In this document: positions 3,814 through 14,213 of the stretch, one piece after another | How the letters are laid out: the number at the start of each line of letters is the position of its first letter | How positions within the stretch are numbered: the first letter of the stretch is position 1 | Made by a program: the position numbers and the translations under genes | Assembly (NCBI GenBank): GCA_020426625.1 | Contig: JAGQPR010000014.1 | Span: 1-39,282, forward strand | Direction: 5' to 3' | Length of the DNA: 39,282 nucleotides | DNA from: Planctomycetales bacterium | GTDB lineage: Bacteria; Planctomycetota; Planctomycetia; Pirellulales; Pirellulaceae | The notes under the pieces: generated by a model | Seen by the model: the letters and a program-made list of their open reading frames with translations, nothing else | Told to the model about the DNA's origin: nothing | The model's database searches: none

Positions 3814-4368
3814 TCAAACAGGAAAAGTCAGGTATGTTGCCGGCACGGCGTCGACGAGCCAGACGCCGTTGGCGGAGAGGTAGAATTGGTGGCCATCACG
3901 ATGCATGGTTTCGGCCGCGACTTGCAGAATGATTGGCTTGCCTCGCCGCGAGCCGACTTTGGTCGCGGTTTCTTCATCGGGCGATAGATGGACGTGGTGG
4001 CGTGATCGCTTTTGCAGACCGCTAGCTCGAATACTCTCGAGAAAGGCGGCGACCGTTCCGTGATAGAGAATGCCGGGAGGCGTTTTCTGTTCGAAAACGA
4101 GTTCGACGCCGCGGACTGAATGCCCCTGGCTGGCCCGAATTCGCAAGCCATCCTCGCTCAAGGCGAAACGATTCTTGTCGTTCGTGGCGACCACTTCGTG
4201 GATCACCTCCATCCTGATTGCTTTTCCATGAGCGTTTGCTTGGCTAATCAATTCGTCGATGCAGAGCCAACCTTCTGGGTCTAGCTTTGCGCCAATCACT
4301 TCCGGCCGATGCCGAAGGACCAAGCTGAGGAACTTGCTGGTGGAGACGAGTTTGTCGTTTCTAGTCAT
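3814..4368 (-). CDS. kptA: RNA 2'-phosphotransferase KptA (Tpt1 family)
   Basis: The 184-residue product matches the Tpt1/KptA family, which transfers an RNA 2'-phosphate to NAD+ and releases ADP-ribose 1''-2''-cyclic phosphate. Visible motifs are SKFLSLVLRHRPE (11-23), the winged-helix N-lobe WLCIDELI, QGHS (81-84), LYHGT (101-105), HVHLSPDEETA (125-135) and the C-terminal FYLSANGVWLVDAVP. I placed the start at the ATG at 4368-4366. The open frame continues upstream to 4539, but that stretch is the palindromic repeat at 4401-4468 and has no coding character. The eukaryotic enzyme completes tRNA splicing. Bacteria lack that pathway, so the substrate here is unknown. No tRNA ligase is in view. 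Confidence 0.9.
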   Translation of the reverse strand: MTRNDKLVSTSKFLSLVLRHRPEVIGAKLDPEGWLCIDELISQANAHGKAIRMEVIHEVVATNDKNRFALSEDGLRIRASQGHSVRGVELVFEQKTPPGILYHGTVAAFLESIRASGLQKRSRHHVHLSPDEETATKVGSRRGKPIILQVAAETMHRDGHQFYLSANGVWLVDAVPATYLTFPV

Positions 4369-4400
4369 GCTTATGATTCTAAAGAGTTCATGCTTACGAA

Positions 4401-4468
4401 CGTAGTGGATAGGGTGACGAATCCCTGCTCCGCCACGATGACAGGGACTCGTCACCTCGTCCACTACA
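4401..4468. repeat. Family A palindromic repeat, copy 2
   Basis: Two 26-base arms (4402-4427 and 4442-4467) are inverted repeats with four mismatches around a 14-base loop. Core words are GTAGTGGATAGGGTGACGA on the left and TCGTCACCTCGTCCACTAC on the right. It lies just upstream of kptA. Transcribed, it would form a strong hairpin. Confidence 0.85.
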
Positions 4469-4570
4469 AGAAAACGTCCGCGAGAGATTTCCGTCTGGGG
4501 CATTTGAAAGTGGATTGAGTTCCAGCTTGTCGTCCGCAATGACAGGCAAAAAAGCGTTTACAGCACTTTC

Positions 4571-6716: not shown

Positions 6717-7100
6717 CTATTTGACACCGCAAGTTTGCGAATTGCATCGACCTGTCAACCGCAACCGGTTTTTGGCAAAAACCTGATACGCAGCATCGAG
6801 TGCGTGTGAAATTCCGGGTATGCGAGTTACCGCTACTAGTGGTCTGAGCCCGATTGCCGCGTACAGAAGGCGAAAGACTTCAACGCCTGAAATCCACTCA
6901 CCGCTCGGCAAACGCCCCTGTATCTCATCCATGAACTGCTTCATATCTTTGCCATAGGCTGCGGCGTTGAAGCCCGGATCGGCGATATCCGTGAAGAGGA
7001 TGCGATGTTTACGATCGAACCGACGCAGTAGATTGATCTCGCGGAGACAGAGTGGACACTCTCCGTCGTAAAAAACCTCTACTCTCCAGTCACTATTCAT
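6717..7100 (-). CDS. DCC-family thiol-disulfide oxidoreductase-like protein (DUF393)
   Basis: The 127-residue protein carries the defining DCC signature [20 protein letters not shown] (8-27), in which Cys15 and Cys18 form a CxxC pair. It also has the conserved FTDIADP (35-41) and [18 protein letters not shown] (72-89) segments. Its length is typical. The family is thioredoxin-like and uncharacterised in detail. The ATG overlaps the TGA of the SOUL gene upstream (ATGA at 7097-7100), so the two are very likely co-translated. Confidence 0.88.
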
Positions 7101-7753
7101 TCTTCACCCACCGCCTTTCCGCCAGCCTCTGCCTCGATGGTTACCTTTTCGTTCGCAGGCTCTGTTAATCGGATTAGGATCTCATTCCGTCGCGATGCCG
7201 CTGGGGTGAAAGGCGGATTATAACCGGCCGCTTCGGCCGACTCGACACCGGTTAACGAGCGTCCCGTCATCCAATCACGCAACTGCTCTTCCTTCAACTT
7301 TGCCGACTTGGAATCCAAACGTCCGGAGAAACGGATCACCGCGAAGCGACCGCCCTTTCGTTCTCGTAGTTGCACTCCCTTACCCTGTGGATCAGGTGCA
7401 CCCTCAGTGGCCACTAGCTTGGGCATCACAAAACCCATCGAAACCTCTGACTTACCGATTTCACCTTCCATAAAGACAGGGGTGGTCATCTCGATTTTCT
7501 GCCCGGCTTTGTTGGCGCCGCTGATGTACTGAAATAGTCTCATGAAGCTGCCATCACGTCCTTGCGAGTCCATTTTGGACTCCGTCGCGGCAAGTATTAG
7601 GTCCGGATATTCGCGAATCTCAAAGGCTCCGTCAGACTGGATCACTTTGTACTCTGCCGACTCATACCCCTCCCTGTCGGTAATCGCCAGTCCGACTGTG
7701 CCGACGATGGCGACGAAAACGAATACCGTACTAAACATTGCAGGTCGATTCAC
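7097..7753 (-). CDS. SOUL haem-binding family protein
   Basis: The 218-residue protein has one N-terminal hydrophobic segment (about 5-23; signal peptide or anchor) followed by a SOUL/HBP domain. It shows the conserved [20 protein letters not shown] (34-53), [25 protein letters not shown] and a late [15 protein letters not shown]. Eukaryotic SOUL/p22HBP proteins bind haem or tetrapyrroles; bacterial members are not well studied. I kept the GTG start at 7753 because GGAG stands eight bases before it; an ATG at 7739 is the alternative. The overlap with the DCC gene suggests a functional pair, possibly in periplasmic redox or tetrapyrrole handling (inference). Confidence 0.87.
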
Positions 7754-7984
7754 CGTGCTTGCTCCGTCGTTTGAAGATTTCTGGGTAGATCAATTTGTAC
7801 TACAACTTCTTTGTAGACACAGAACTCGCAATGCCCACACCACATTGACAACTGATCTCTCCCCGCCAAAGCGTGTCCAGGTAGCGAGCGGATCTGCAGT
7901 TGCAAGCCTGCTGCGCTAGTGCGGAGTGGCAAGTCTACGCGGCACCGTGTTGGCCCATTAATTGACCGAACGATTCTCACGTCA
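7754..7984. other. Region between SOUL gene and DUF1641 remnant
   Basis: No intact gene is recognisable. An open minus-strand frame (7750-8079) runs through it, but only its first part, at 7985-8079, has a protein-like resemblance (see the DUF1641 remnant). Confidence 0.3.
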
Positions 7985-8164
7985 AGGCAAAGCAGCGTCA
8001 GCGTCGTTAACCGCGATATCAACTTGGGTAGTTCCCCACCAACGGTAAGCAACTTACGATCTGGCCAGCGATTGGGCACGATCGAGTAGCCGATGCAAGG
8101 CGGAGGACATTTGCGGTTCGTTTAGGCGCTCCGCGAGTGATGGGTGATAACGCGTAGTTTTCAT
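7985..8164 (-). pseudogene. Frameshifted remnant of a DUF1641 protein
   Basis: An ATG at 8164-8162, 40 bases beyond the cstB-like stop, opens a 36-codon frame containing LAERLNEPQMSSALHRLLDR (11-30), which ends at TAA (8056-8054). This looks like the start of DUF1641 proteins (a short helix, then ...ALNRLLDR...). In the -1/+1 neighbour frame, overlapping the stop, the reading continues as KLLTVGGELPKLISRL, which fits the next helix of that family, and then decays. I interpret one frameshift near 8056-8066 and further damage downstream. DUF1641 proteins often accompany sulfide:quinone oxidoreductase-like enzymes, so the position behind a persulfide dioxygenase gene supports the call. A short functional peptide cannot be excluded. 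Confidence 0.5.
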
Positions 8165-8204
8165 AGGTGTTCTCGTTTGTTGTGCAGGTACTGGGATGGA
8201 TAAG

Positions 8205-9635
8205 CTAGGCTTTTCCACTGAACTCCGCTTCAGGTTTCACACTCGCCCGACCGTCAGCTTTCCACGCTGTGTAACCTCCCGTCAAATTGACTACGTTCCT
8301 GAATCCCGCCGCTTGCAGGACACTAACACCGATCGCCGACCGTGCGCCGCTGCGGCAATGAACCACTATCTTTTCGTCGCGGGGTAGCTCGTCGAGACAA
8401 GTCGGTAGCCGACCCAAGAAACGATGCTCGGCTTGCTTGATGTGTCCCTCATTCCACTCCTCAATGGATCGAACGTCGACCAGCTTCATTTCGCCGGATT
8501 CAATTGAAGAAGCTAACTCTGCTGGCGTCCCGGTCGCATAGACTTCATCAGCTTGACCCGATTGACGAACATCATTTGCATCAAAGCCACCCCGGATGTC
8601 TTCAACGCCAATCTTGTGTAATACGCGTGCTGCTTCTTCCAAGTGTTCGGAATCGCAAATCAGATAAGTTGGGCGATCGTAATCGACTAGCCATCCCGCC
8701 CAGGCTGAAAGCATGCCCAACGGAATGTTGATCGTTCCCGGGACGTGTCCCCTGGCAAATTCAGGTGACGGCGCCAGATCGACGACTGTTCCCTGTTGGA
8801 TCGCGTCCGCCAATTCGTTTGTTTCCAACATTTGATGGCGATGGCCGGCACCTAGAATTGCGGGGCCTTCCTTGTTCACTCGTTTCATGACCGCGAAGTA
8901 CTTTGGCGCTTCCGGCTGGTCAGCCAAGATGTAGCGAACGAACTCCTCTTCGTCCGTAAATTGCAGTGCCGGATTGAATAGTTTTTCGTAGCCGACCGTC
9001 GAGGAGGGAATTGCTCCAAGACCTTTGCCGCAGGCGCTGCCAGCACCATGGGCGGGCCAAACTTGCATGTAGTCAGGCAACGATTTGAAACGCTCTGCTG
9101 ATTGGAACAAGTCACGTGCACCCGGTTCAGCGGTGCCAGCCAGGCCAGCAGCTTCTTCTAACAAATCGGGCCGCCCGATCGAACCTACGAAGACAAAGTC
9201 ACCAGTGAAGATTCCCATCGGTTTGTCAGCGCCGCCACCTTGATCGGTCAGTACAAACGAAATGCTTTCGGGTGTGTGGCCCGGAGTGTGCATGACGTCG
9301 AAACGTATGTTTCCGATCATAAAGTGATCACTGTCGTGCAGCAGTTCACTTTTGTAACCAGCCAGGTATTGGTACTTCCATTCCGCCGGTCCTTCGTCGG
9401 AAACGTACAGCTTTGCATCGACACGGTCAGCAAGCTCGCGAGCCCCCGACACATAGTCCGCGTGAATGTGCGTTTCGGCCACCGCGACCAGTTTGACGCC
9501 CTCGCGATCAGCCATCTCAACGTATTGTTCCACGTCGCGACCTGGATCCACGACGATGGCAACTTGGGCTCGCTGGCAACCGACCATATACGACGCATGG
9601 GCGAGCTTTTGATCGTAAAAATACTTGAGTAACAT
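8205..9635 (-). CDS. CstB-like persulfide dioxygenase-sulfurtransferase (MBL + two rhodanese domains)
   Basis: The 476-residue protein has three domains. An ETHE1-like metallo-beta-lactamase fold (1-250) carries THIHAD (55-60; His56, His58, Asp60), His120 in TPGHTPES, Asp146 in TGDFVF and His196 in PAHGAGSACGKG, the mono-iron site of persulfide dioxygenases. A first rhodanese-like domain (about 270-355) has a degenerate loop (ICDSEHLEE). A second (about 370-465) has the active loop HCRSGARS with Cys427. Cys20 and Cys202 lie almost exactly where Staphylococcus CstB has its functional cysteines. Expected role: oxidise persulfide sulfur to sulfite and transfer sulfane sulfur. AGAGGAA precedes the ATG. 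It lies 31 bases after the TauE gene and is likely co-transcribed with it. Confidence 0.9.
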   Translation of the reverse strand: MLLKYFYDQKLAHASYMVGCQRAQVAIVVDPGRDVEQYVEMADREGVKLVAVAETHIHADYVSGARELADRVDAKLYVSDEGPAEWKYQYLAGYKSELLHDSDHFMIGNIRFDVMHTPGHTPESISFVLTDQGGGADKPMGIFTGDFVFVGSIGRPDLLEEAAGLAGTAEPGARDLFQSAERFKSLPDYMQVWPAHGAGSACGKGLGAIPSSTVGYEKLFNPALQFTDEEEFVRYILADQPEAPKYFAVMKRVNKEGPAILGAGHRHQMLETNELADAIQQGTVVDLAPSPEFARGHVPGTINIPLGMLSAWAGWLVDYDRPTYLICDSEHLEEAARVLHKIGVEDIRGGFDANDVRQSGQADEVYATGTPAELASSIESGEMKLVDVRSIEEWNEGHIKQAEHRFLGRLPTCLDELPRDEKIVVHCRSGARSAIGVSVLQAAGFRNVVNLTGGYTAWKADGRASVKPEAEFSGKA

Positions 9636-9666
9636 CTGTCTATTCCTCTGTGAAAATGTACCTGAG

Positions 9667-10500
9667 TTAGAGAACGACTGACTTGACGATTACAAACATC
9701 GCCACCAAAACGACAGCGAAGGAAAAGGCTTTTTGAAGCGTAGGGCCTTTTAGATGAGTGGCGACTACGTTGCCGAGCCACATTCCGGCAAATCCTCCGA
9801 TCATGAATTGAATCGCAACCTCCAACGAAAGCGGATTGCCCGCTGCCATGTGAGATATAACCCCACTGACGCTGACCAGAACAATGACAAACAACGAAGT
9901 TCCGACAGCTTGGTGAATCGCCATACCACTGAATAGCACCAAAGCAGGAACAATCACAAAGCCACCGCCTACGCCAAACATGCCCGAAAGCACACCTGTC
10001 AACAGGCCGACCAGAACAAGCAGGCGAGCGCAGCGGGATGTCAAGCGAAGCGTGCCGTCTTTGTCTCTTTGGCAGGCGCTTCGGTCTCGCCCGTTACGTG
10101 GGCGATCGCTCTCGGTTGAGCAAACGCCGCTGGCCACCTTGGGGTTTTTCGCCTTGGACCACATACGATAGGCAACGGCGAACATCAACAGCGCAAACAA
10201 CACCAACAACAGCCGCTCGGGCACCAGTTTCGACCAATACGCCCCCACGGGTGCGCCGACCATTCCTGCCAAGGAGAAGAGCAATCCGGTTCGCAATTCG
10301 ACTTCCCCGCGTAGGAGTCGCGATATCGCACCAAACATCGCAGTACCTCCGACTGCGGCAAGTGAGATCCCAACGGCTTCACGCGGCGCGATTGCAAGTC
10401 CGTAGACTAGCAGCGGGACAGCGAATACACCGCCCCCGCCGCCGGTCAAACCGAGTGCGAAACCCACGATAGAGCCGAATAGAACCGCTAGACCAAGCAT
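9667..10500 (-). CDS. TauE/SafE-family sulfite/organosulfonate exporter
   Basis: This 277-residue integral membrane protein has the TauE/SafE layout: two related blocks of about four transmembrane helices each, joined by a polar Arg/Ser/Cys-containing linker (about 117-152). Both blocks carry the family's Gly-rich repeat: GLTGGGGGVFAVPLLVYGLA (18-37) and GMFGVGGGFVIVPALVLFSG (about 173-192). AAGGTGAG precedes the ATG. It is first in the operon with the persulfide dioxygenase. In that setting it probably exports sulfite or thiosulfate produced by persulfide oxidation (inference from CstA/CstB/TauE loci). The promoter region holds the candidate ArsR operator at 10664-10679. Confidence 0.88.
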   Translation of the reverse strand: MLGLAVLFGSIVGFALGLTGGGGGVFAVPLLVYGLAIAPREAVGISLAAVGGTAMFGAISRLLRGEVELRTGLLFSLAGMVGAPVGAYWSKLVPERLLLVLFALLMFAVAYRMWSKAKNPKVASGVCSTESDRPRNGRDRSACQRDKDGTLRLTSRCARLLVLVGLLTGVLSGMFGVGGGFVIVPALVLFSGMAIHQAVGTSLFVIVLVSVSGVISHMAAGNPLSLEVAIQFMIGGFAGMWLGNVVATHLKGPTLQKAFSFAVVLVAMFVIVKSVVL

Positions 10501-10663
10501 GACTCACCTTTGCAAGTGGCTGAAAAAGGCAAGTTCGAAGGGACTGCAGCGATGAGAGGCAGCTGTTGCGAAGGCCAGACCCAATCAGGGCTGGCACTCA
10601 GGGCAATCCCGCACCGAGTGTCGAACAATCGTATGGCAGTACTAACGTCCATTTACATGTAAC

Positions 10664-10679
10664 CTCGCGACATCTCGAT
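10664..10679 (-). promoter_or_regulatory. Candidate ArsR operator upstream of the TauE-CstB operon
   Basis: On the minus strand the site reads ATCGAGATGTCGCGAG. It agrees at 12 of 16 positions with the dyad inside the arsR promoter (ATCGAGATATTCCGAT, 11095-11110). It lies 164 bases before the TauE start and just after the arsR terminator. It could act as a repressor site for the sulfur genes; the exact -35/-10 boxes of this operon are not clear. Confidence 0.5.
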
Positions 10680-10687
10680 ATATTAAC

Positions 10688-10724
10688 GAAAATAAAAAGC
10701 GGCTTGCTTTCACGCCTGCCGCTT
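10688..10724 (-). terminator. Rho-independent terminator of the arsR gene
   Basis: On the minus strand, AAGCGGC (10724-10718) pairs with GCCGCTT (10703-10697) in a 7-bp stem with a 14-base loop, followed by TTTTATTTT. It begins four bases after the arsR stop codon. It should isolate arsR transcription from the TauE operon. Confidence 0.75.
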
Positions 10725-10728
10725 GATC

Positions 10729-11061
10729 TCACGTTTCGTAACTAACACCGCAGGGCACAAACCTCCCTTCGATGCATGCCATCAATTCCGCTAGGTGCGA
10801 TGCGGCAATTTGGTAGTACACCCTGCGCCCGTCACGCTCGCTAGACAAAAAACCGCATCGCTGCAGCAACCGCAGGTGTTCCGACATGGCGTTGTCGACG
10901 ACTTGGCAATCCTCGGCTAGTTCGCCAACTGTGTAGCGCCCCTGCAGAAGCATCTGAACGATTCGCAACCTGACTGGATGTGCCAACGTTTTCAGGCATT
11001 CGGCGGCTTCGGAAAAATTCTCGACACCATCGGCTCGTTTGGATTTTGCAATGTTTGACAT
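10729..11061 (-). CDS. ArsR/SmtB-family repressor, probable sulfur-responsive regulator
   Basis: The 110-residue winged-helix protein has the ArsR core: AAECLKTLAHPVRLRIVQML (19-38), recognition helix region VGELAEDCQVVDNAMSEHLRLLQRCG (starting at 45) and the wing FLSSERDGRRVYYQI (71-85). The start is the ATG at 11061-11059, with GGAGG five bases upstream. An in-frame start further upstream would lie inside the promoter. It has cysteines at 22, 52, 69, 96 and 104, but none at the positions expected for the SqrR/BigR persulfide-sensing pair, so the sensing mechanism is open. The promoter dyad implies autoregulation, and the related site before the TauE gene implies control of the neighbouring sulfur operon. 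Confidence 0.85.
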   Translation of the reverse strand: MSNIAKSKRADGVENFSEAAECLKTLAHPVRLRIVQMLLQGRYTVGELAEDCQVVDNAMSEHLRLLQRCGFLSSERDGRRVYYQIAASHLAELMACIEGRFVPCGVSYET

Positions 11062-11089
11062 CAGGACCTCCAACTGCTCCCTTAATGTC

Positions 11090-11117
11090 AATATATCGGA
11101 ATATCTCGATGTGTCAA
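11090..11117 (-). promoter_or_regulatory. arsR promoter with embedded operator dyad
   Basis: On the minus strand a consensus -35 TTGACA (11117-11112) and a -10 TATATT (11095-11090) are 16 bases apart. The dyad ATCGAGATATTCCGAT (11110-11095) fills the spacer; 12 of its 16 positions are symmetric. A repressor bound here would block the polymerase. Confidence 0.7.
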
Positions 11118-11926: not shown

Positions 11927-13210
11927 TTAAGTAACCCGCAATAGAGCAAATTTCTTCCGTCCAGAACGAAGGACAACAATTGACTCGCTAACCAAGTCTT
12001 GGCGGCTGAGAGTGTAGGCGGCATCGTTGATGCGTCGATTGTTCACGTAGCCGCCGCCCTGCTCGATGGTTCGCCTTGCTTCGGTCTTGCTCTTGGCTAG
12101 TGCAACGGTAACCAGCGCATCGACCAGTGGCATTCCTGAACTCAGTTGTTCGCTTGAAATAGTACCGCTGGGTACGTCGTGAAAAATTTCGCCCAACTGT
12201 AGATCGCTGACGCCTTCAATCTCCGCGCCGAACAATATTTCTGTAGCTTTCAGTGCAGCATTCAATCCTGCGTCTCCGTGCAAAAACTGCGTCAGCCAAG
12301 AGGCAAGTCTCTTTTGAGCTTCTCGCTTGTGAGGCTCATCGGCTACAGCCAATTCCAAGGACTGAATTTCTTCTTCATCGAGTTCTGTTAGAAAACGCAA
12401 GCACATGATTACGTCTGCGTCACCAACATTGACCCAGTACTGGTAGAAGGCATAGGGTGAGGTGCGGGCCGGATCCAGCCAGACAGCCCCGCTTTCTGTC
12501 TTGCCCATCTTGCGCCCGTCGCTGGTGAGCAGCAATGGGCAAGTCAGACCAAAAAGCTGCTTTGAGTGCATCCTTCTCGCTAGGTCGATACCAGCGGTGA
12601 TATTGCCCCATTGGTCGCTGCCACCAATTTGCAGACGGCAATCATATTGTTCGCTCAAGTGCGCAAAATCGTAAGCTTGCAACAACATGTAACTGAATTC
12701 GGTGTAGCTCAATCCGCTGTCATCGCGTTGAAGGCGATTTTTTACTGAATCCTTTGCCAGCATGACGTTGACGGGAAAGTTCTTTCCAACATCGCGCAAA
12801 AAGTTGATGTAGGACCAATTCTGCATCCAATCAAAGTTGTTCACCAGTCTGGCTGCGAACTTGCCATCAAAGTCTAGAACGCTGCTCATTTGAGCTTGCA
12901 TGCCGAGAACATTCTCTTGCAGCAAATCCGGTGAGAGCAAAACGCGTTCCTGACTCTTGCCGCTAGGGTCGCCGATCATGCCTGTCGCACCTCCGACAAG
13001 CGCAATCGGCGTATGGCCCGCGCGTTGAAATCGACGGAGCATCATCAGTGGCAGCAGGCTACCGCAATGCAAACTTGGTGCTGTCGGGTCGAAACCAGCA
13101 TAAACCGTCCGCGACGTGGAAAGGAACTCCCGGAGCATCGTCTCGTCGGTACACTGCTGGACCAACCCACGCCAATGAAGTTCATCAAGTATGTGCGGTG
13201 TATTCATCAT
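11927..13210 (-). CDS. tyrS: Tyrosine-tRNA ligase
   Basis: The 427-residue class I synthetase charges tRNA-Tyr. The catalytic domain shows YAGFDPTAPSLHCGSLLP (37-54; the HIGH-type motif is HCGS, with Ser as the last residue as in several bacterial TyrS), GGATGMIGDPSGKSQER, the tyrosine pocket YTEFSYMLLQAYDF, GGSDQWGN and the KMSKS-type loop GRKMGKTESG. An S4-like RNA-binding domain closes the protein (about 360-425: VDALVTVALAKSKTEARRTI ...). Its length fits TyrS. Two adjacent ATGs (13210 and 13207) are possible starts. It follows ispD by 71 bases on the same strand and may be co-transcribed. Confidence 0.95.
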   Translation of the reverse strand: MMNTPHILDELHWRGLVQQCTDETMLREFLSTSRTVYAGFDPTAPSLHCGSLLPLMMLRRFQRAGHTPIALVGGATGMIGDPSGKSQERVLLSPDLLQENVLGMQAQMSSVLDFDGKFAARLVNNFDWMQNWSYINFLRDVGKNFPVNVMLAKDSVKNRLQRDDSGLSYTEFSYMLLQAYDFAHLSEQYDCRLQIGGSDQWGNITAGIDLARRMHSKQLFGLTCPLLLTSDGRKMGKTESGAVWLDPARTSPYAFYQYWVNVGDADVIMCLRFLTELDEEEIQSLELAVADEPHKREAQKRLASWLTQFLHGDAGLNAALKATEILFGAEIEGVSDLQLGEIFHDVPSGTISSEQLSSGMPLVDALVTVALAKSKTEARRTIEQGGGYVNNRRINDAAYTLSRQDLVSESIVVLRSGRKKFALLRVT

Positions 13211-13281
13211 CGAAACAATCTGGGAGATAAAGTGGGAATTGCCAGTGGAATTGTCTGCGATAGTTTTCCCGCTCTGACGAA

Positions 13282-13995
13282 TTAGCCAAAGGGGAACAAC
13301 TTGGGTTTGGGTAGAGCCTTCATTGCCAGTTCCGCGAACCGGAGGTCGGATTTCGTCGTCACTTTTACATTCAATGGACTTCCTTCGACCACCGTAATCT
13401 CGACTCCTAAGGCAGCTACGATGGCAGCATCGTCAGTCGCCTGGACAGGATTGGGGTGGGCATCGTAACCGCGTCGCAGTAGATCAGTTTTGAAGACTTG
13501 AGGAGTTTGAGCCAACCAGAGGCCATCACGCGGCACCGTTTCGACGATTTTGCGATTGCCATCGACCTTTTTCAGCGTGGAATGGCACGGTGTGGCCAAG
13601 ATAGCTGCGCCACGCTCCGCTGCAGTTGCGAACACAGCGTCGATCCAAGGCTGTGCGATGCATGGTCTGGCAGCGTCGTGGACAGCCACATAGGGAGCGT
13701 TTGCAGCCAGGGCATTCAATCCGTTGAGCACGCTTTCCGCGCGAGACGATCCACCAACCACTGCTCGCACGCCCAAGATCGCAGCGTTGCCAGCGAATTT
13801 CTCCCCGAACATTTCGCGATCGTCTGGCGAAATCACCAACACGATCTCCGCTACATCCGCCCGTTTTGAAAACGCTTCGGCGGCGTACATCCACAGAGGC
13901 TTGGCATCAATCGTACTGAAGACTTTGTTTTTGTGCGGGTCACCGAATCGCTGGCTCTTGCCTGCCGCGGCCAAAATGACTGCATATTTCGACAT
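13282..13995 (-). CDS. ispD: 2-C-methyl-D-erythritol 4-phosphate cytidylyltransferase
   Basis: The 237-residue enzyme joins MEP and CTP to form CDP-ME in the non-mevalonate isoprenoid pathway. The motifs are AVILAAAGKSQRFG (5-18), the CTP-binding loop VVGGSSRAESVLNGL (about 79-93), VHDAARP, TPQVFKTDLLRRGY and ATDDAAIVAALG. I chose the ATG at 13995 because the preceding in-frame codons have no family similarity and the length (237) then matches IspD. ispF is not adjacent. It stands upstream of tyrS and 218 bases from the divergent degenerate-GGDEF gene. Confidence 0.93.
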   Translation of the reverse strand: MSKYAVILAAAGKSQRFGDPHKNKVFSTIDAKPLWMYAAEAFSKRADVAEIVLVISPDDREMFGEKFAGNAAILGVRAVVGGSSRAESVLNGLNALAANAPYVAVHDAARPCIAQPWIDAVFATAAERGAAILATPCHSTLKKVDGNRKIVETVPRDGLWLAQTPQVFKTDLLRRGYDAHPNPVQATDDAAIVAALGVEITVVEGSPLNVKVTTKSDLRFAELAMKALPKPKLFPFG

Positions 13996-14213
13996 GGAGT
14001 CTCTTCCATCAACTGCCCACCACGCCAACAATTGACCACAATCAACACGGCGTAGAATCGTTAGCAATCGCAGAATTGTCACAACCGCTCCTTGACTGGT
14101 CAATCCGACTAAAAATTGCCGCATGGTCAGCTAAGTTGACCTAGGATTCTACGAGAGCGTTTCGAACTGTCGGGTTCGGCTTTTTGAATCATTGAAAACG
14201 CAATTGCCAGCAA

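Follow-up and report, generated by a model that had tools for sequence, protein, structure and literature searches.

The window, i.e. the whole stretch of 39,282 nucleotides analysed here, carries on its minus strand an ArsR-family repressor gene (10729..11091), an intact TauE/SafE sulfite-exporter gene (9667..10500; PF01925, E=1.6e-51) and an intact CstB-like gene (8205..9635). The product of the last of these comprises, at full length, an ETHE1-type (metallo-beta-lactamase) persulfide dioxygenase and rhodanese domains, and it aligns over almost its whole length with the structures 3r2u (S. aureus; E=2e-114) and 3tp9 (E=2e-145). The repressor matches BigR (3pqj, E=8e-13). In many relatives a small rhodanese gene is located between the ArsR and TauE genes; it is absent here, where the two are separated by a gap of 228 nt (window 10501-10728). 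Two further genes, encoding a SOUL heme-binding and a DCC1-like thiol-disulfide protein, overlap by 4 nt at window 6717-7753; they neighbour each other also in the genomes G382 and G332, and represent an accessory pair that other genomes carry at a distance from the operon. The window also contains, at 3814-4539, a gene for a Tpt1/KptA RNA 2'-phosphotransferase, found here in a bacterium.

The cst operon of Staphylococcus aureus comprises TauE, CstA, CstB and SQR (sulfide:quinone oxidoreductase) under a repressor of the CsoR type. The domain order of CstB and its TauE neighbour are the same in the window, whose repressor, in contrast, is of the ArsR type, and which lacks both CstA and SQR. A second relevant system is the bigR operon of Xylella and Agrobacterium (BigR, Blh, TauE), which, as in the window, encodes an ArsR-family repressor, a dioxygenase-sulfurtransferase fusion and a TauE exporter, and for which no SQR is named (PMC5823870). 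However, Blh combines DUF442 with ETHE1, while the CstB of the window combines ETHE1 with rhodaneses, and the window proteins do not reach the NCBIfam cut-offs for Blh and BigR; the repressor scores 60 bits with the BigR model, whose cut-off is 155.

Directly behind the CstB-like gene, on the same strand, lies a sequence (8164..7994) resembling the beginning of a DUF1641 gene in three pieces. Piece 1 (MKTTRYHPSLAERLNEPQMSSALHRLLDRAQSLARS; 8057..8164) corresponds to codons 1-36, the final ones already shifted; it has kept its ATG at 8164, starts 40 nt behind the CstB stop codon and ends at a TAA stop (8056..8054). Piece 2 (KLLTVGGELPKLIS; 8014..8055; intact counterpart QMLTTVGELPNLLA) has been shifted to the next frame by a net insertion of 7 nt near 8065..8055, while piece 3 (IAVNDADA; 7994..8017; intact counterpart IAVDFFDA) is again in the original frame, which is restored by a deletion of 4 nt near 8018. 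The consensus of the N terminus of the intact relatives reads METTLQRPSLADRLNDPxTAEVLHRLLDHAESLDQMLTTVGELPNLLAIAVDFFDA. An earlier note had placed the first two pieces in consecutive minus-strand frames with a frame change at a TAA, as the coordinates and translations confirm; piece 3, at whose end recognisable DUF1641 homology stops, was absent from it. The following stretch on the same strand (7754..7993), which runs to the next gene, contains nothing recognisable as DUF1641 or SQR. The exact remnant was seen in one sequence only.

The frame is thus both disrupted and truncated in comparison with the intact orthologues: residues ~1-58 of a gene of ~253 codons are retained, and the other ~75% of DUF1641, together with the whole of SQR, is missing. 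The fragmented draft assembly (916 contigs) might suggest an intact DUF1641 gene hit by a sequencing or assembly error. However, such an error would have to account for at least two frame-changing indels and for a C-terminal part that is not found before the next gene, and neither DUF1641 nor SQR turned up elsewhere in the genome of the window; we therefore regard this explanation as highly improbable.

A frameshift-aware alignment of window 8204..7751 with a profile of 16 intact Pirellulaceae DUF1641 proteins gave a score of 101.5, compared with at most 39.9 for ~145 segments elsewhere in the window and at most 34.5 for 100 shuffles. Each piece taken alone also exceeded its background, piece 1 with 82.4 against a maximum of 33.1 (n=1973) and piece 2 with 33.4 against a maximum of 30.6 (n=1978). 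At the DNA level, positions 8176..7995, approximately the interval of the earlier note (7985-8164), match the intact gene of genome G380 (63% identity, E=5e-12), and the remnant also matches the MAG HKST-UBA72 (E=8e-10). These results bear out the earlier identification of a DUF1641 remnant directly behind a CstB-like gene. The remnant is short, as a chance resemblance of unrelated intergenic sequence would be, but its scores lie above every control, order and spacing are correct, and the homology extends to the DNA; the profile score and the DNA match refute this explanation, whose probability is negligible. A tblastn search of the pieces against 30 relatives returned, apart from the window itself, only a weak match in L002 of genome G020, a probable second remnant (see below).

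A Pfam search of both pieces, the check proposed in the earlier note, gave no match to DUF1641 (PF07849). This result is uninformative: the model has 39 positions and sits at residues 199-231 of the protein of intact relatives, so that it misses a remnant of residues ~1-58, and tests with this HMM are blind to N-terminal DUF1641 remnants in general. The intact DUF1641 proteins (L035-L042, L031-L034) contain an internal tandem repeat, with residues ~6-82 resembling ~65-141, and since this repeat precedes the short Pfam segment, PF07849 describes just a small C-terminal part of DUF1641 proteins. In the absence of a PF07849 match, the locus is classified here as a remnant of DUF1641 and not as a member of the family.

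The preserved start codon and distance to CstB, and a dN that is still below dS over the remnant codons when these are compared with the intact genes, would also be expected if the 36-codon frame encoded a short protein that stems from the N terminus of DUF1641 and is functional in its own right. A dN below dS is, however, expected if the decay is young, and the comparison involves one sequence of 34 codons, which is short for a test of codon constraint. The non-synonymous fraction over the remnant codons (0.45-0.65) is slightly above the mean between intact genes (0.43). A similar short frame occurs in no relative, and the other remnants end at different places, so that conservation of the stop codons as a short separate gene finds no support. 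We consider a functional short protein improbable.

In intact relatives the operon has the order (ArsR)-(rhodanese)-TauE-CstB-DUF1641-SQR, and their SQR resembles human SQOR (E=4.5e-126). The remnant shares with the Pirellulaceae DUF1641 genes (PF07849) located beside SQR the first ~58 codons, the slot behind CstB and the spacing: the gap behind CstB measures 40 nt in the window, against 42-52 nt in most of the close relatives with an intact pair and 100-151 nt in G341, G342 and G337. It differs from them in being truncated and frameshifted, with the C-terminal PF07849 segment and SQR gone. Comparison of the syntenic locus, which the earlier note had also proposed, covered 61 CstB loci: DUF1641 and SQR lie directly behind CstB in 17 of them, remnants are present in five, and in 39 nothing recognisable is left.

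The five remnant loci represent four unlike kinds of scar. Besides the window, they include G020, in which ~20 DUF1641 codons are left at +104, the exact offset of the intact congeners G341 and G342; since the score of this remnant (44) is alone not above background, it is assigned from its position and from the identity of the leader at the DNA level. In the 99%-complete genome G325 (L141), DUF1641 has an out-of-frame internal deletion, and SQR is frameshifted and broken after ~170 residues. G377 (L150) and G379 (L153) retain only the last 22 SQR codons, at +28 behind CstB, as the result of a deletion common to both, and the pair is intact in their sister G380. The intact state requires 11 changes on the CstB tree, of which well-supported branches force at least seven, and at least four are required for the remnant rows; these figures are state changes and not counted losses, and some of them could reflect horizontal transfer. 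Among 58 genomes that are at least 95% complete and contain a CstB orthologue, 35 are without a detectable intact SQR. Loss of DUF1641-SQR is therefore recurrent and not a single recent event. A literature search yielded nothing on SQR loss in planctomycetes.

The earlier statement that no SQR is in view holds for the window and also for its genome as assembled (G000, 93.9% complete), in which neither an SQOR-like nor a second SQR-like query found an SQR, and in which no DUF1641 was found outside the remnant. A search of G000 for FCSD (flavocytochrome c sulfide dehydrogenase) was empty but had no positive control, and it is not counted as evidence. As this genome is fragmented and incomplete, its missing portion could harbour an SQR, which leaves some scope for a loss of the pair at this locus with sulfide oxidation maintained by an SQR that has moved elsewhere or by a different enzyme. 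A possible precedent for relocation is G331, which carries DUF1641-SQR on a different contig from TauE-CstB. On the other hand, both SQR-type queries failed in G000, and no SQR was detected anywhere in the near-complete, single-contig SQR-less relatives G020, G374, G377, G336, G340 and G344; we judge this alternative unlikely, though less so than the others considered here. The operon of G331 is split between ArsR-rhodanese-TauE fragment (26 codons)-DUF1641-SQR on L162 (G331:C7, 2328-5335) and TauE-CstB without DUF1641-SQR on L147 (G331:C6), and the two contigs look like two copies that have decayed in complementary ways.

Considering the homology, the position behind CstB, the indels, the lack of the remaining DUF1641 sequence and of a detectable SQR, and the repeated loss of the pair in relatives, we conclude with high confidence that 8164..7994 on the minus strand is a pseudogene, comprising the initial ~58 codons of a DUF1641 gene which formerly preceded SQR at the end of an ArsR-TauE-CstB-DUF1641-SQR operon for sulfide oxidation.

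The operon was probably acquired horizontally, as the CstB tree conflicts with the genus of the genome. The CstB of the window has its closest counterparts in other genera (85% for G320 and G361, compared with 58-71% for genus members), and it groups with those of G320, G361 and the intact G337 in a supported clade. TyrS of the window, in turn, has its closest matches within the genus of the genome (73-74%), and four of five genus relatives examined share the TyrS-IspD synteny, which makes mis-binning of the contig unlikely. CstB and TauE (window 8205-11091) are thus closest to other genera, while the adjoining TyrS-IspD (11927-14124) is typical of the own genus, and the operon lies at the edge of this conserved block. 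Judging from these sequence relationships, DUF1641-SQR could have decayed before the operon arrived in this genome. Of the earlier proposal that this lineage recently lost the quinone-linked sulfide step, the loss itself is supported; it is, however, not particular to this lineage, being recurrent in relatives.

CstB appears to be under purifying selection also where SQR is lacking. Its dN/dS ranges from 0.03 to 0.13 over pairs including SQR-less genomes, with values of 0.10 for the SQR-less sisters G377 and G379 and 0.069 for the intact pair G341 and G342; comparison of the window with G361 gives 0.033, with dS saturated. Such low values suggest constraint on CstB without SQR.

In the complete operon, an SQR of the human SQOR type would convert H2S into persulfide and pass the electrons to quinone. 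DUF1641 would probably assist this quinone step, by analogy to ForE, the DUF1641 protein of the ForCE system of Bacillus subtilis, which also lies beside a quinone-linked dehydrogenase, although the partner there is formate dehydrogenase and not SQR; in the absence of ForE, menaquinone-linked formate dehydrogenase oxidoreductase activity is reduced ~50-fold (PMC8808070). Once SQR was gone, DUF1641 would have become useless. In the leftover operon, ArsR would sense sulfur species, CstB would oxidise or transfer persulfides and TauE would export sulfite, the persulfides presumably originating from thiosulfate or cysteine breakdown in place of SQR. By analogy to the bigR operon, which it resembles, we infer that the remaining ArsR-TauE-CstB operon clears persulfide from non-SQR sources. 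The earlier note proposed that only persulfide clearance was kept; the retention of an intact and constrained CstB agrees with this, while clearance itself is the role that this comparison suggests.

Gene decay as such is ordinary (a pseudogene formed by operon erosion), and the interest of this locus lies in the parallel, repeated loss of one functional unit, DUF1641 plus SQR, from an operon that is kept in other respects. We give about even chances to the broader proposal that in Rhodopirellula-like Pirellulaceae the CstB-TauE operon repeatedly, selectively and independently loses DUF1641 and SQR, its quinone-linked entry enzyme, together while CstB stays constrained. The recurrent joint loss ties the poorly understood DUF1641 to the function of SQR, and close pairs with and without SQR (e.g. 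G341 and G020) are suited to tests of what feeds a CstB that lacks SQR. If the proposal is true, the persulfide dioxygenase of these bacteria would serve persulfides that are not made by SQR from H2S.
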